The notes under the pieces are model-generated. The model was not told the DNA's origin, did no database searches, and saw nothing but the letters and a program-made list of their open reading frames with translations. Shown in pieces: positions 721 to 6,195 of a stretch of DNA of 7,169 nt. The number at the start of each line of letters is the position of its first letter. Position 1 is the first letter of the stretch. The position numbers were made by a program, and so were the translations under genes. Source of the stretch: Betaproteobacteria bacterium (GTDB lineage: Bacteria; Desulfobacterota; Desulfovibrionia; Desulfovibrionales; Desulfovibrionaceae); the NCBI GenBank assembly GCA_009778295.1, contig WRKB01000258.1, forward strand, positions 1 to 7,169, read 5' to 3'.

Positions 721-1176
721 CTATTCCAAGGTAGTTTTGCCTGTTTCCTGACGGTAGACGTAGGCGCTGCCATGCATGGAGCCCTGGTGGTAAGGGTGGC
801 AGCTTGAACAGTCGTTCCGCTTGCCGAACTTCGCTTCCATACGATCCATGCTCAACGAATGGCAGCGGGCACACAAACTAGCGTCCGGCGTGCGCGTGAA
901 CGCCACGGAACCCTTGCCGTCCGGCTGTCCATGACAGGTTTGACAACGCACCAAGGTAACCCCATGCTTGCTCTCATACCATTCCTGAGCCACCTTGGGC
1001 GTAGTTTTGATATGGCATCCATAACAATCACCCATGCGCTCCGGAGCGTCAAGATGCTTGGCGGCTTCACAGCGCACCGCAGGAAAAGCCCAATTTATAT
1101 ACGCGAAATAGCCACCCACCAGTACGAGCAGCAGCAGTGGAATGATAATTACAGGTTTACGGAGTATATCCGTCAT
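721..1176 (-). CDS. napM: Membrane-anchored tetraheme cytochrome c, NapM-like
   Basis: This is a predicted electron carrier between the quinol dehydrogenase NapC and NapA, anchored to the membrane and facing the periplasm. The 151-residue product has a hydrophobic segment at about residues 8-28 (IIIPLLLLVLVGGYFAYINW), best read as an uncleaved signal anchor, then four heme c motifs: CYGCH (51-55), CQTCH (78-82), CARCH (102-106) and CSSCH (123-127). Extra histidines (His71, His130, His135) could serve as distal ligands. The start ATG (1176-1174) has an AAGGAG Shine-Dalgarno and overlaps the napC stop as ATGA, so translation is probably coupled. The stop is TAG at 723-721. A tetraheme NapM beside napC and napA is known from Desulfovibrio, where it is thought to take the place of the diheme NapB. 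The name rests on heme count, anchor and position, not on an alignment. Confidence 0.86.
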   Translation of the reverse strand: MTDILRKPVIIIPLLLLVLVGGYFAYINWAFPAVRCEAAKHLDAPERMGDCYGCHIKTTPKVAQEWYESKHGVTLVRCQTCHGQPDGKGSVAFTRTPDASLCARCHSLSMDRMEAKFGKRNDCSSCHPYHQGSMHGSAYVYRQETGKTTLE

Positions 1177-1742
1177 GGCTGACTCTCCTTGAGTTTGCTG
1201 AGAAACTTGGCATTGCGCGGAATACGTTTATCAAAGGGAGGCAGGTGCGCCATATTGGCATGACACCCTGCACAGCCGCTACGGGCCTGACCGTTGGTTC
1301 CCAGATACGCTTCATGGGCCAGTTTGCCTTCCACAGAAACAGGACCGTCATTTTTAGCGTTTTTGAGCAAATCTTCGTGACAAACGCGGCAATTGCCGTC
1401 ATCCACAAAACGGCGGGCCACAGGCTGCATAGCAGCACGATCCAGTTCAGGAGGCTTTTCGGTATAATGCACCCAAAGATCCTTGCCCCCCAGATACGAT
1501 TTGCCCGCCAGCATGCGTACAATATTCGTACCCGGCACATGGCACTGCACACAACCTATAGGCTGCCCCTTGGCATCTTTGGCATGCGGAGAAGCCTCCA
1601 GCTCTTTTTGATAGAGCTGCATCTCGTGGCAGGAGAGGCAAAAGCTGCTCTTTTGGGTTTCCCTGACAACCATGCCTGTCCCCAGCAGGCACACGAACAC
1701 CGCGATACCGGCCATCCAGTATCGTTTTCGTCGTAACGACAT
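1173..1742 (-). CDS. napC: NapC/NirT-family tetraheme quinol dehydrogenase
   Basis: NapC-family proteins oxidise quinol at the membrane and pass electrons to periplasmic reductases. The 189-residue product has one N-terminal membrane helix (about residues 8-26, after the positive MSLRRKR start) and four heme c motifs: CLSCH (35-39), CVQCH (64-68), CRVCH (118-122) and CAGCH (157-161). The first heme reads CLSCHEM; Met41 fits the CxxCHxM pattern of the NapC/NrfH family. Length is typical of the family. The start at 1742 is preceded by AAAAGGAG about ten bases upstream. The frame stays open further upstream to 1850, but that stretch lacks a ribosome site and any NapC-like sequence, so the longer start was rejected. 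The gene is first in the visible operon, overlaps napM by four bases (ATGA), and faces a two-component system transcribed the other way. NrfH-type proteins are close relatives; the napA neighbour decides for NapC. Confidence 0.93.
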   Translation of the reverse strand: MSLRRKRYWMAGIAVFVCLLGTGMVVRETQKSSFCLSCHEMQLYQKELEASPHAKDAKGQPIGCVQCHVPGTNIVRMLAGKSYLGGKDLWVHYTEKPPELDRAAMQPVARRFVDDGNCRVCHEDLLKNAKNDGPVSVEGKLAHEAYLGTNGQARSGCAGCHANMAHLPPFDKRIPRNAKFLSKLKESQP

Positions 1743-1825: not shown

Positions 1826-1841
1826 TACAAAAAACATGCCG
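1826..1841 (-). promoter_or_regulatory. Candidate sigma-54 (-24/-12) promoter of the nap operon
   Basis: Read on the minus strand (1841 to 1826) the sequence is CGGCATGTTTTTTGTA. Against the sigma-54 consensus TGGCACG-N4-TTGCW it keeps the -24 GG, the CA, the G at the end of the -24 block, TTG of the -12 block and the last A, with the exact GG-to-GC spacing. Mismatches are C for the first T, T for C in the -24 block, and T for the -12 C. The last affects a normally well-conserved base, so this would be a weak or strongly activator-dependent promoter. Transcription would start near 1814, giving a leader of about 72 bases to napC. A sigma-54 activator encoded divergently makes the match more believable. 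Confidence 0.5.
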
Positions 1842-1872
1842 TGCGGGCACAGATTAAAATCTTTTGTAATTA

Positions 1873-1899: not shown

Positions 1900-1944
1900 A
1901 TGATAAAAAATGAAGGGTAAAACAGCCTTGCAATGTGTAGAAAA

Positions 1945-1963
1945 ATCAGACAGTTTGTCAGAT
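1945..1963. promoter_or_regulatory. Imperfect inverted repeat 42 bases before the sensor kinase start
   Basis: ATCAGACA and TGTCAGAT are separated by GTT and match in seven of eight paired positions. The element differs in sequence from the 27-bp palindrome and lies closer to the kinase gene, so it may be a separate operator or simply part of its leader RNA. I could not recognise a convincing promoter for the kinase gene in this spacer. Confidence 0.3.
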
Positions 1964-2004
1964 AAATATGACTCTCCGCCCACGCAGCGAAAAGGACCCA
2001 AAGG

Positions 2005-4269
2005 ATGAAATGCAGCACTGTGAAGCCGTATATATTGCCCTTTTTTCTTTCCGCGATCTGGTGCCTGCTGCTGCTGGTGCTTTTGCAACGCAATATGCGG
2101 GATGAAGAAAGCTACGCAACGGCACTGGCCCGTTTGCAGGCCCGCACTCTCTGCGCCCAGATGATGGACACCCGAGCCTGGAATGCTGCCCACGGCGGCG
2201 TATATGTGCGTGAAAGCGAATATGGCGTCGCCAACCCCTGGATTCCGGAAGAAATGCGCCGCGCTACCCTGTCCAACGGCGAAAGCCTCGTACTCATCAA
2301 TCCTGCCTACATGAGCCGCCAGATTGCCGAACGCGGCAGCACCAAAGGCGCGCGCTTGCGCATCACCAGCAGCAAGCCCCTCCGCCCGGAAAACCGGGCC
2401 GACGCATGGGAAGAGGCTGCGTTGCGCAGCATCAGCCTGGGAGAACCCGAAGTGTTCAAATTGGATGCGTCCGTGCCGGGTTCGCAAAATTTCCGTTATA
2501 TTGCGCCGTTGCATGCCGAAGAAGACTGTCTGCGCTGCCATACAAACAACAGGCTGCATGAAGTACGCGGCGGCATCAGCGTGACCCTGGAAGCCGCCCC
2601 CTTTTTACGGACAATCCAGGAATACAACGACACCCTCGGCTATACCTATGCGCTTATGGGACTGGCGGGCATGCTGGGAATAGGCAGTCTTTCCTTTGCC
2701 ATTAATCGCAAGCGCCTTCTTGCGGAGCATAAGGAGCAGATGAACAGCACCTTTTTAGCGAACATGAGCCACGACATGCGTACGCCGCTCACCGGCATCA
2801 TGGGCATGGCCGACTTGCTGCAGGAAGAAACGAATGAAGAGAAAAAACGGCAGGCATGCCGCTATCTTCGTTCCGCTGCCGCTACGTTGCTGGACATGGT
2901 TACGGACATCACCACGCATGCGGCCCTGGATACAGGACAGCTTCAATGTGCGCATCAGGCTTTTTCACTTAAAGAAAGCCTGGAGACCTGCCTGGAGCTG
3001 TTCCGCCCTGCCTGTGCTGAAAAAAAGCTGGAACTGGAACTCAGAATTATGGATGACCTGCCGCCTGTGCTGCTGGGAGATGAGTTCCGTTTGCGGCAGG
3101 CGCTCGGCAACCTGGTGGGCAATGCGGTAAAATTTACGGAACGTGGCGGTATCCGTGTAGAAGCGGGGGGGGAAGCCGTAGACGGCAATGAGTATATGCT
3201 GCTTATGAAGGTGCGGGACACCGGCCCCGGCATTGTGCCGGAAGAACAGGCGCACATTTTTGAACGCTTTGCCCAAGGCAACCAAGGCGAGATGCACAGC
3301 ACGCCGGGCACAGGACTTGGACTGTCCATTACACGAGAATTGGCGGGATTGATGCGTGGTACGCTTTGTCTGGAAAGCACACCTGGTGAAGGAAGCTGCT
3401 TTACCCTCAGCCTTCGTTGTGCACTGCCCGCAAATGCGACCAATGCACAATCCCGCCCGCTCGACGAGGGTGAAAAAAAAGTTTTGCAAGAGACGTCCGC
3501 CGCCCCGGCAAGCAAGCCCGAAGCACTCCGTATTGTCCTTGCGGAAGATAATAAGGCCAGCGCACATTTCTTCAAGGAAATTTTGCGTCAGGCCGGACAC
3601 AGTGTTGCAGTGGCCGAGGACGGGTTCGAAGCGCTTGCGCTCTTGCGGCATACCCCTGCAGACCTTGCCATTCTTGACATTCGTATGCCCGGTATAAACG
3701 GCCTGGAGCTTGTGGAGATCATCCGCAAAGGCGACGCGGGTGTTGAACCGGCACTACCGATCATCAGCATTACCGCCTCACAGAATGAAGAAATGCAAAC
3801 ACGGCTCAAGCAGCTCGGCGTGTGCGTTCAAGTGGCAAAACCCCTCAGCGCGGCACAACTCCTGCAAAGCATACGAAAAGCATACGGGAACAACAGTCTG
3901 CAGAGAGCGCCATCCGGTACGGAAACAGTCTTCGACCTTGCCGCAGCCCTTGAAAAAATGGAGGGCAACCATGTGTTGCTGCGCAAACTCGCCGCCGTGT
4001 CGCTTGAGGAACTGCCGCTACAGGAGCAGGCTCTTACACGGGCCATGGAGCAGAACACGCTGACGCAAGTTCACTGTCTGGCCCATGCGCTGAAAAACTC
4101 CGCAGCCATGCTGCAACTTCGACAACTGCGGACTGCCGCCGCAATCCTGGAAAACACCGCCCAAGCACAACAGGACTGCCAGCAGGCATGGCGGACGCTT
4201 CAACAGGCGATGCCCGTAGCGCAGAATGCCTTGCGGGCGTATGTGGATAACCGGGTGGATGCGATATGA
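2005..4269 (+). CDS. Hybrid sensor histidine kinase with heme c-binding periplasmic DUF3365/Tll0287-like domain, receiver and Hpt domains
   Basis: This 754-residue membrane kinase is the likely sensor of a phosphorelay. A membrane helix (about 8-28) and a second (about 212-233) enclose an extracytoplasmic domain. That domain has the DUF3365-type stretch DTRAWNAAHGGVYV (55-68) and a single heme c motif CLRCH (175-179). The cytoplasmic part holds HisKA with His256 (NMSHDMRTPL), a HATPase with N box (LGNLVGNAVKF), G1 DTGPGI (405-410), F box FERF (419-422) and G2 GTGLGL (435-440). It continues with a receiver (Glu514/Asp515, acceptor Asp558, Thr590, Lys612) and a C-terminal Hpt with HALKNSA (His694). 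All catalytic residues for His-Asp-His transfer are present. The start has AAGGA eight bases upstream. The stop overlaps the next gene by ATGA. Heme c attachment implies that it senses redox state or a gas or nitrogen oxide; nitrate or NO control of the divergent nap genes is inference. Confidence 0.93.
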   Translation: MKCSTVKPYILPFFLSAIWCLLLLVLLQRNMRDEESYATALARLQARTLCAQMMDTRAWNAAHGGVYVRESEYGVANPWIPEEMRRATLSNGESLVLINPAYMSRQIAERGSTKGARLRITSSKPLRPENRADAWEEAALRSISLGEPEVFKLDASVPGSQNFRYIAPLHAEEDCLRCHTNNRLHEVRGGISVTLEAAPFLRTIQEYNDTLGYTYALMGLAGMLGIGSLSFAINRKRLLAEHKEQMNSTFLANMSHDMRTPLTGIMGMADLLQEETNEEKKRQACRYLRSAAATLLDMVTDITTHAALDTGQLQCAHQAFSLKESLETCLELFRPACAEKKLELELRIMDDLPPVLLGDEFRLRQALGNLVGNAVKFTERGGIRVEAGGEAVDGNEYMLLMKVRDTGPGIVPEEQAHIFERFAQGNQGEMHSTPGTGLGLSITRELAGLMRGTLCLESTPGEGSCFTLSLRCALPANATNAQSRPLDEGEKKVLQETSAAPASKPEALRIVLAEDNKASAHFFKEILRQAGHSVAVAEDGFEALALLRHTPADLAILDIRMPGINGLELVEIIRKGDAGVEPALPIISITASQNEEMQTRLKQLGVCVQVAKPLSAAQLLQSIRKAYGNNSLQRAPSGTETVFDLAAALEKMEGNHVLLRKLAAVSLEELPLQEQALTRAMEQNTLTQVHCLAHALKNSAAMLQLRQLRTAAAILENTAQAQQDCQQAWRTLQQAMPVAQNALRAYVDNRVDAI

Positions 4270-5654
4270 CAAAACTTCTCGTAGTGGATGACGAAGCTCT
4301 GGTGCGCGTGCTGGTGGAAGAAGTGGTCGGCGCCCTTGGCTTTGAAGTGCTCAGCGCCGGCACCTTGGCGGAAGGATTGGCGTTGGGCCGCAAAGGCGTG
4401 GACCTTGTGCTGCTGGATGTCTTGCTGCCTGACGGTAACGGACTCGAGCGGATTAAAGATTTCAGCTACCTGCCCTCCCATCCGGAAATCCTGATCATCA
4501 GCGGGCACGGAGACGGCGATGCTGTTGAAAAGGCATTACGCTCAGGCGTCTGGGAATTTCTCGCCAAACCACTGAGCCCCCAGGAACTGACCCAGACCGT
4601 CAGCCAACTTATAGCCTACCGCCTCGGGAAACCGCGCCGCCAGGAAACCTCGCCCTTGGCGCGTATGGGCATCATCGGCAACAGCCCGCAACTTATGGCA
4701 GCCCTTCAAATACTGGCGGAAGCCGCGGCCAGCGACGTCAACGTCCTCCTGTTGGGAGAAACCGGCGTAGGCAAAGAACTCTTCGCCCATGCCCTGCACA
4801 AGAACAGCGCACGCGCCGCCCAACCTTTCGTGACCGTTGACTGCGCCGCATTACCCGCAAGCTTGGTGGAAAGCCATCTGTTCGGCTATGCCAAAGGAGC
4901 CTTCACCGGGGCGGATCGCAGCCGCGAGGGGCTGCTTGCGGCCGCCCATCGGGGCACATTATTTCTGGATGAAGTGGGGGATCTGCCCGCTGTAATCCAG
5001 GGCAATTTTTTACGCGTTCTTGAATTACGGCGCTTCCGCCCCGTAGGAGAGGTAAGGGAGGCTGAAAGCCAGTTCCGGCTTGTGGCCGCAACCAACCGTG
5101 ATCTGGAACAGCTTGCAGCGCTTGATCTGTTTCGTAACGATCTGCTCTTCCGGCTGCGCGGGGTCAGCATTCGTATCCCTCCGTTGCGGGAGCGCACAGA
5201 AGACATCCCCGATCTGACCCGGCATGCGGTCATGCGCTTTTGCTCACAGCATGCCATGCCTGCTAAGGAAATCACCGACGGATGCCTGGATCTGCTGCTC
5301 GAATACACTTGGCCCGGCAACGTGCGCGAACTCTTCCACACCATGGCGAGAGCCTGCGTTGCCGCAGGGCAACAGAACCGGATCTTTGCCGGACACCTGC
5401 CCACGGAACTGCGGGTTGCCGTAGCGCGCCGCAACATAGATAATTCACTACAAGCACCGTTTCAGGGACAAGCGTTTCCCCCCCTTGCGGACACGCCCAG
5501 CTTGCGCGAGTGGAAAACTCGCGCAGAGGCCATGTATGTCGAACAACTCGTTATGCACTGCCGGGGAGATATGCGTAAAGCTGCTGATATTGCTGGACTT
5601 TCTCGGGGGCACCTGTATGAGCTTCTAAAAAAGCACGGAAAAAACAAACGGTAG
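4266..5654 (+). CDS. Sigma-54-dependent response regulator (NtrC family)
   Basis: This 462-residue transcription activator is the likely final acceptor of the phosphorelay started by the kinase just upstream. The receiver (1-115) shows Asp8/Asp9, acceptor Asp51 (LLDVLLPDG), Ser79 at the Ser/Thr switch position and Lys101 (LAKPLS). The AAA+ domain (about 135-365) has Walker A GETGVGKE (164-171), an intact GAFTGA loop (211-216) for sigma-54 contact, Walker B LFLDEVGDL (232-240), an arginine-finger region FRNDLLFRL (289-297) and sensor II WPGNVREL (349-356). A Fis-type helix-turn-helix lies at about 434-458 (RKAADIAGLSRGHLYELLKK). Length and domain order are normal. The start ATG overlaps the kinase stop (ATGA) and has only a weak ribosome site, so coupled translation is likely. 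The obvious nearby target is the divergent nap operon. No other canonical sigma-54 promoter was seen in the window. Confidence 0.95.
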   Translation: MTKLLVVDDEALVRVLVEEVVGALGFEVLSAGTLAEGLALGRKGVDLVLLDVLLPDGNGLERIKDFSYLPSHPEILIISGHGDGDAVEKALRSGVWEFLAKPLSPQELTQTVSQLIAYRLGKPRRQETSPLARMGIIGNSPQLMAALQILAEAAASDVNVLLLGETGVGKELFAHALHKNSARAAQPFVTVDCAALPASLVESHLFGYAKGAFTGADRSREGLLAAAHRGTLFLDEVGDLPAVIQGNFLRVLELRRFRPVGEVREAESQFRLVAATNRDLEQLAALDLFRNDLLFRLRGVSIRIPPLRERTEDIPDLTRHAVMRFCSQHAMPAKEITDGCLDLLLEYTWPGNVRELFHTMARACVAAGQQNRIFAGHLPTELRVAVARRNIDNSLQAPFQGQAFPPLADTPSLREWKTRAEAMYVEQLVMHCRGDMRKAADIAGLSRGHLYELLKKHGKNKR

Positions 5655-5934: not shown

Positions 5935-6195
5935 ATGGATACCCCCAGGACCATCAAGGGTTATGTGACCGCACTGGCGGCAAACGCCGATGAAACAAAG
6001 GCCCGCATCGCGGTGGAAACGGACGGCGTTGCCTACCATGTTATCCGCCGCGGAGCGGGAGTGGATCTTGACGATCATCTGAGCGCTCTGGTGCAGGTCA
6101 CGGGTATTGTATACCAAGATGAGGACGAAAATTGGCTGATCAACGTGCGTAGCTATGAATTGCTGGAAGACGACAGCTGGTTCGAAGACGACTAG
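5935..6195 (+). CDS. Small OB-fold-like hypothetical protein with acidic tail
   Basis: I do not recognise a named family. The 86-residue product starts MDTPRTIKGYVTALAAN, contains alternating beta-like segments (IKGYVTAL, ARIAVETDGVAYHVI, ALVQVTGIVYQ, NWLINVRSYELL) in the manner of a small OB-fold beta-barrel, and ends in an acidic tail (LLEDDSWFEDD). No signal peptide or membrane segment is visible, so it is probably cytosolic. OB-fold proteins often bind nucleic acid or ligands, but nothing here shows which, and the fold itself is inferred from the pattern only. The frame is open back to a TTG at 5689, but that TTG sits inside the terminator stem and the extra N-terminus looks like non-coding read-through. 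ATG 5935, with AAAGG nine bases upstream, was therefore chosen. The gene stands alone after a terminator and its stop is one base from the convergent helicase stop. Confidence 0.7.
   Translation: MDTPRTIKGYVTALAANADETKARIAVETDGVAYHVIRRGAGVDLDDHLSALVQVTGIVYQDEDENWLINVRSYELLEDDSWFEDD

Follow-up and report, generated by a model that had tools for sequence, protein, structure and literature searches.

An NrfS-NrfR-type phosphorelay with a predicted heme c sensor divergent from nap in a Desulfovibrionaceae genome

Two-component control of nap and nrf is familiar from NarX/NarQ-NarL/NarP, which resemble the system described here in that respect but contain no heme, have a different sensor and use a regulator that is not of the sigma-54 type.

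The closest described system is NrfS-NrfR. In the text available for D. desulfuricans 27774, this pair is described with a divergent nrfHA operon and with likely sites in front of nap, and its signal was called unrevealed in 2017, though most probably nitrite (PMC5701242). In the passages available from other studies, DVU0621 is named as a regulator targeting the nitrite reductase genes DVU0624-0625 (PMC3333781, PMC4641369), the nitrite-stress regulator of nrfHA is given as NrfR, whose 16-bp motif resembles the LurR one (PMC6456213), and NrfS-NrfR is listed as a nitrite-sensing activator of both nap and nrf (PMC12285233).

A second body of work concerns the heme c-carrying Cache domains (sCache_heme or Tll0287; DUF3365, PF11845). 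According to the accessible text of a 2026 preprint, 99% of the family carry CxxCH, and in one member of the signalling type NO comes off slowly and no stable complex with oxygen is formed (PMC12889525); a word search of its main text for Desulfovibrio, nitrate, nap and operon found none of these. The Geobacter chemoreceptors GSU0582 and GSU0935 belong to the same domain family and have a heme c in the periplasm to which both NO and CO bind, as reported in the part available (PMC8396549). No tie of NrfS to heme or to the heme-c Cache domain was found in the portions of the literature searched; the main study of NrfR, Rajeev 2015 (J Bacteriol 197:3400), may mention a heme motif of NrfS. The signal of NrfS, open in 2017, and the NO binding of heme-c Cache domains in the preprint together point to one question that can be put to a purified domain.

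The kinase-regulator pair and its identity

The window, which is the whole stretch of 7,169 nucleotides analysed here, is contig 258 of a fragmented 1.48 Mb genome that is 65% complete and whose genus has two genomes in the comparison set; the nearest named relative is the Desulfovibrionaceae metagenome bin Nt197P3bin4 (71% identity, best segment). It encodes a hybrid histidine kinase together with an NtrC-type sigma-54 response regulator, on the strand opposite to napC-napM-napA (Table 1). The original prediction, which had read the kinase as divergent from nap, with a CLRCH heme c motif in a DUF3365-like domain, an intact HisKA-HATPase-REC-Hpt relay and a coupled sigma-54 regulator, was correct on all of these points. 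The motif falls within the Tll0287/DUF3365 domain, between two long helices, and is the only CxxCH of the kinase, while His256, Asp558 and His694 each stand, on inspection of the sequence, in a normal motif and at the residues and coordinates that had been proposed. GAFTGA is present in the translated regulator, and a sigma-54 gene was found in the same genome. The sensor part has one match in this genome, as far as it is assembled. Behind the regulator, the window holds an open frame of 85 aa (5938-6192) for which no Pfam or NCBIfam match was found, and the C-terminal part of a UvrD-type helicase that runs off the contig (6197-7168).

Table 1. Features of the window in the order of the signalling path and then of the facing operon.
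Feature	Position	Strand	Remarks
NrfS-type hybrid histidine kinase (754 aa)	2005..4269	+	helix, Tll0287/DUF3365 (sCache_heme) sensor, helix, HisKA, HATPase, REC, Hpt
CLRCH heme-c attachment motif, residues 175-179	2527..2541	+	CxxCH in 61/61 distinct related sensors
His256, predicted autophosphorylation site	2770..2772	+	His 60/61, gap 1/61
Asp558, predicted phospho-acceptor of internal receiver	3676..3678	+	Asp 51/61, gap 10/61
His694, predicted phosphotransfer site of Hpt	4084..4086	+	His 46/61, Arg 1/61, gap 14/61
NrfR-type sigma-54 response regulator (462 aa)	4266..5654	+	receiver and sigma-54 AAA+; start overlaps kinase stop
NrfR-type box 1, GTCATATTTATCTGAC	1957..1972	-	24.2 bits; 0/3000 shuffles as high
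NrfR-type box 2 (weak), GTCTGATTTTTCTACA	1936..1951	-	7.9 bits; 21 bp from box 1
Sigma-54-like -24/-12 element ACGGCATGTTTTTTGTA, facing napC	1826..1842	-	93 bp from box 2
napC (NapC/NrfH-family tetraheme cytochrome)	1173..1742	-	name from family and gene order
napM (cytochrome with four CxxCH)	721..1176	-	name from gene order
napA, N-terminal part, cut by contig end	1..639	-	

The sensor part was searched in 288 genomes of the family, its own included, and 126 of these gave a match at E 1e-10 or better. The surroundings were fetched for the best 60 other places, which with the window make 61 distinct loci. Genes for nitrite reductase, nitrate reductase or octaheme HAO-like cytochromes adjoin the pair in 52/61. 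The largest share has nrfHA-type genes divergent from the pair (38/61, among them one locus with nap behind nrfHA and one with a second type of NrfA), followed by a NapC/NirT-type cytochrome with an octaheme cytochrome, also divergent (8/61), and by nap itself (6/61), where the pair is divergent from napC in two loci (the window and L075) and lies downstream of napH in four. Of the rest, one locus ends at a contig edge and eight are without such neighbours. Adjacency to nap thus recurs in 6/61 loci, but nrfHA-type neighbours are far commoner, at 38/61. At two loci (L065 and L091) the open frames of the kinase are only 463 and 222 aa long while the regulator is still matched, which may reflect a frameshift, decay or an assembly error.

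A quick tree was built from 58 kinases, leaving out three short rows and one duplicate; it flags long branches, L075 among them. The window kinase falls in a starred set of 23, of which 20 are linked to nrfHA (SH-aLRT 99), and the eight kinases without nap, nrf or octaheme neighbours form one starred clade of their own. At one locus (L068), where the pair is divergent from nrfHA, the NrfA is 99.8% identical to PDB 1OAH, which we take to be the protein of D. desulfuricans ATCC 27774, in agreement with a reference title in PMC12285233. Since NrfS-NrfR was described in strain 27774, the pair at this locus, and by orthology that of the window, is NrfS-NrfR. Judged by sequence and tree position, the window pair is thus an ortholog of a known system and not a new nap-specific device. 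The idea of a different sensing device on the nap side is supported as regards the heme-c motif, the relay and a role in nap control, but not as regards nap-specific novelty, as the kinase falls in the clade of the known NrfS-NrfR pairs.

None of the fetched loci could be assigned to D. vulgaris Hildenborough, since identity to the NrfA of that organism (2J7A) does not exceed 80% at any locus. The link to DVU0621, which is presumably NrfR since the reported targets agree, rests on the D. desulfuricans anchor, on the papers and on this equation of DVU0621 with NrfR. A scan of named species with the window protein returned two loci, one of which was a distant Bacteroidetes kinase.

The pair shares with NrfS-NrfR of D. 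vulgaris and D. desulfuricans 27774 a sigma-54 regulator with its kinase, nrfHA as target (predicted here), 16-bp boxes and sites before nap, as far as these are covered in the text available (PMC5701242, PMC6456213, PMC3333781, PMC4641369). It differs in abutting napC and in the recognition of its sensor as a heme-c Cache domain, a point not found stated in the portions of the literature searched. A further difference is that the window genus probably has nap and nrfHA in a single array, judging from the sister genome described below.

The predicted heme c sensor domain and its likely signal

The match of the sensor to PF11845 scores 67 bits against a curated cut-off of 24.1, and the structure model is confident and shows a Cache fold like that of Tll0287. 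In the VIA list for this model Tll0287 comes first, tied with a WalK model and followed by heme-free Cache sensors, and GSU0935 and GSU0582 appear in the Foldseek list. Sequence searches against the PDB were less informative: the sensor as a single sequence gave no match, the best 60 of 423 matches of a full-length profile were kinase and receiver chains and one designed chain, and a sensor-only profile matched Tll0287 (E 0.047), GSU0582 (E 0.78) and a chain of NrfA (E 0.88), none of which is significant alone, so the likeness to Tll0287 is carried by the fold match of the model. The family membership is consistent with this, as the Pfam match is over cut-off, CxxCH is present and the model is Cache-like; in contrast to Tll0287, the window sensor is fused to HisKA-HATPase-REC-Hpt, and whereas GSU0582 and GSU0935 drive chemotaxis it is predicted to drive transcription.

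The CxxCH is kept throughout the 61 distinct kinases, and W59, N60, N77, N99, M103 and R105 are each present in 61/61, with H63 in 59/61. A heme c attached to the NrfS sensor in the periplasm is predicted. The axial Cys46 of Tll0287 would fall near Ala58 of the window sensor if the first helix aligns without gaps, so that no Cys ligand is expected.

The pair is NrfS-NrfR and probably switches on nap and nrfHA when the predicted periplasmic heme c meets nitrite or, more likely, NO formed from nitrite. Ligand binding or oxidation of the heme would move the transmembrane helices, and phosphate would pass from His256 to Asp558, His694 and Asp51 of the regulator. Phosphorylated NrfR would then bind its boxes and remodel a sigma-54 polymerase about 100 bp away. 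The nitrate and nitrite reductases would in this way be made together, and nitrite would not pile up. In the text available, nitrite is the reported inducer of NrfS-NrfR; NO is preferred as the ligand on the grounds that it is bound tightly by a relative and is formed from nitrite.

A different use of the same heme, as a redox sensor that reports periplasmic potential through a change of distal ligand on oxidation and perceives nitrogen oxides only indirectly, is the strongest alternative, though an unlikely one. A redox-linked ligand switch has been proposed for the solved relatives GSU0582 and GSU0935, with potentials of -156 and -251 mV in the part of the study available (PMC8396549), and the conserved M103 (61/61) and H63 (59/61) could supply a sixth ligand. 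It fits less well with the 52/61 loci in which reductases of the nitrogen-oxide type adjoin the pair, and with the signalling-type domain that, in the text available, holds NO with slow release (PMC12889525).

Candidate NrfR sites at nap and nrf

The motif GTC-Nk-GAC was counted for k from 3 to 15 in the intergenic regions that precede the pair at 48 loci. The N10 form occurred 44 times, in 28/48 regions, against 4.6 in simple shuffles, and the N5 form 12 times against 4.8, with the other 11 spacings at or below chance. A box profile was refined on 45 of the 48 loci, leaving out the window, L047 and L075, and the window scores in Table 1 are thus from a profile trained without it. Neither the score of the first box nor the tandem sum was reached in any of the 3000 dinucleotide shuffles of the window region. 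Tandem boxes beat all 60 shuffles in 48/48 regions, 45 of which had trained the profile. A sigma-54-like element (scanned as GG-N10 followed by GC, GA, GG or GT, with GG required and no shuffle baseline) lies 80-98 bp after the last box in 46/48 regions, in one of them as a tied second-best, and at 124 and 122 bp in L049 and L069. In the window its -12 position is GT, where the classical form has GC. Given their place between divergent genes, the boxes may also act on the nrfS-nrfR transcript. According to the text available, the 16-bp motif bound by LurR of D. vulgaris is almost the same (PMC6456213), so that a box by itself does not tell which regulator uses it. Between the boxes and the sigma-54-like element, the window also carries a perfect 23-bp palindrome, CTATGTTAATAATATTAACATAG (1875-1897), the core of a longer imperfect repeat, where HcpR1, Rex or some different regulator might bind.

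The nap loci of the family were surveyed as well. NapM was found in 62/288 genomes at E 1e-12, and the region upstream of nap was scored in 59 of these, leaving out the window, G120 and G281. Tandem boxes of at least 25 bits were present in 21/23 genomes with a NrfS ortholog and in 3/36 without (Fisher p 8e-11, a value that ignores shared ancestry). The two NrfS genomes without a tandem pair have one box each, of 25.1 bits (G059) and 15.0 bits (G235). The three exceptions without NrfS are G041, with strong boxes at a site that is the same as that of G037 and no NrfS detected, and G008 and G158, which carry another nap-linked kinase clade, of which G271 (23.0) and G272 (24.1) fall just short; G239, also without NrfS, has a single box of 20.7 bits. 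No kinase was found in the fetched nap stretches of the 23 NrfS genomes, and neither napM nor napA in their kinase loci, some of which are on short contigs. The link between boxes and NrfS is therefore independent of adjacency. The control of nap, which had originally been deduced from position, gains backing from the boxes, the sigma-54-like element and this co-occurrence, all of them sequence patterns. NrfR control of nap, for which PMC5701242 gives no count in the text available, is thereby extended to a survey of boxes and sensors that covers 59 nap loci.

In the window's own genome, nrfHA lies on another contig (172), after the end of napH and a gene for a FmdE/MoCF-domain protein. Upstream of this nrfH (G000:C172:2169-2192), box 1 scores 24.6 bits and the second box less than 7 bits. 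Over the 1.48 Mb, exactly two places match the tandem-box pattern, and exactly two the 14-mer CGGCATGTTTTTTG, in each case those before napC and nrfH, and the reversed-pattern controls for both gave 0 matches; as both were written after the two places had been viewed, the counts show uniqueness and not discovery. In the sister genome (G001, locus L108), napA, napG, napH, a FmdE-like gene, nrfH and nrfA are contiguous, and nrfH is preceded by a similar element and by two boxes, scoring 18.3 and 16.8 bits. From this gene order, nap and nrfHA are probably parts of a single array in the genus. In G120, nrfH has one strong box upstream but no convincing promoter element was found there; this and the weak second boxes slightly lower the weight of joint control. 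The protein encoded between napH and nrfH (L107 358-2064, L108 2791-4488; domains scanned in L107) has FmdE and MoCF-binding domains and is perhaps a molybdenum cofactor helper for NapA.

These results bear on a nitrate sensor specific to nap, recruited away from nrf in the window lineage. The arrangement in the window and in G120, where the pair abuts napC and nrfHA is elsewhere or further off, would suit such a sensor. It is nevertheless improbable, since the box pattern is retained before nrfH in the own genome, boxes are also present at nap loci distant from the pair, and 22/47 other NrfS genomes, some of them incomplete, have no NapM match at E 1e-12. Together with the NrfS-NrfR clade and the commoner nrfHA neighbours (38 against 6 of 61), these genomes make a nitrate-only device unlikely. 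A chance placement beside nap, with the pair acting on some other target, is more improbable still, as gene order does vary (nrfHA lies between the pair and nap in G281, and after nap and the FmdE-like gene in G001) but in the window, G281 and G120, which form one clade, the genes divergent from the pair are still those of a nap or nrf operon, with a box and promoter element facing it.

A second clade of DUF3365 hybrid kinases, downstream of napH, was seen at L067, L085, L086 and L088. These nap-linked kinases form a separate clade in the kinase tree, and their loci mostly carry weaker box pairs in front of napC, of 13.6 to 29 bits. With the trained profile, a tandem pair above the cut was found at L085 (29.0 bits) but at none of L067, L086 and L088, and the four were not counted as NrfS.

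Octaheme cytochromes and a possible wider role for NrfS

Genes for tetraheme NapC/NirT-type and octaheme HAO-like cytochromes lie upstream of and divergent from the pair at L089, L090, L092, L094, L096, L101, L103 and L105. The octaheme cytochromes are likely a third class of NrfR target beside nap and nrf, one that was not found in the portions of the NrfR literature searched.

A more tentative proposal, which we regard as possible without favouring it, is that NrfS is a periplasmic heme-c sensor of NO throughout the family, and that one NO-gated phosphorelay runs Nap, NrfHA and the octaheme HAO-like enzyme. Cells would then read a toxic leak outside the membrane instead of the substrate, and NO would be the answer to what NrfS senses, a point left open in the text available from PMC5701242.

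Two of the eight octaheme proteins were scanned and match PF13447, with the NCBIfam hydrazine dehydrogenase model matching far under its cut-off, so they are named here only as far as HAO-like. For the remaining six, the assignment comes from their eight CxxCH motifs and similar N-termini.
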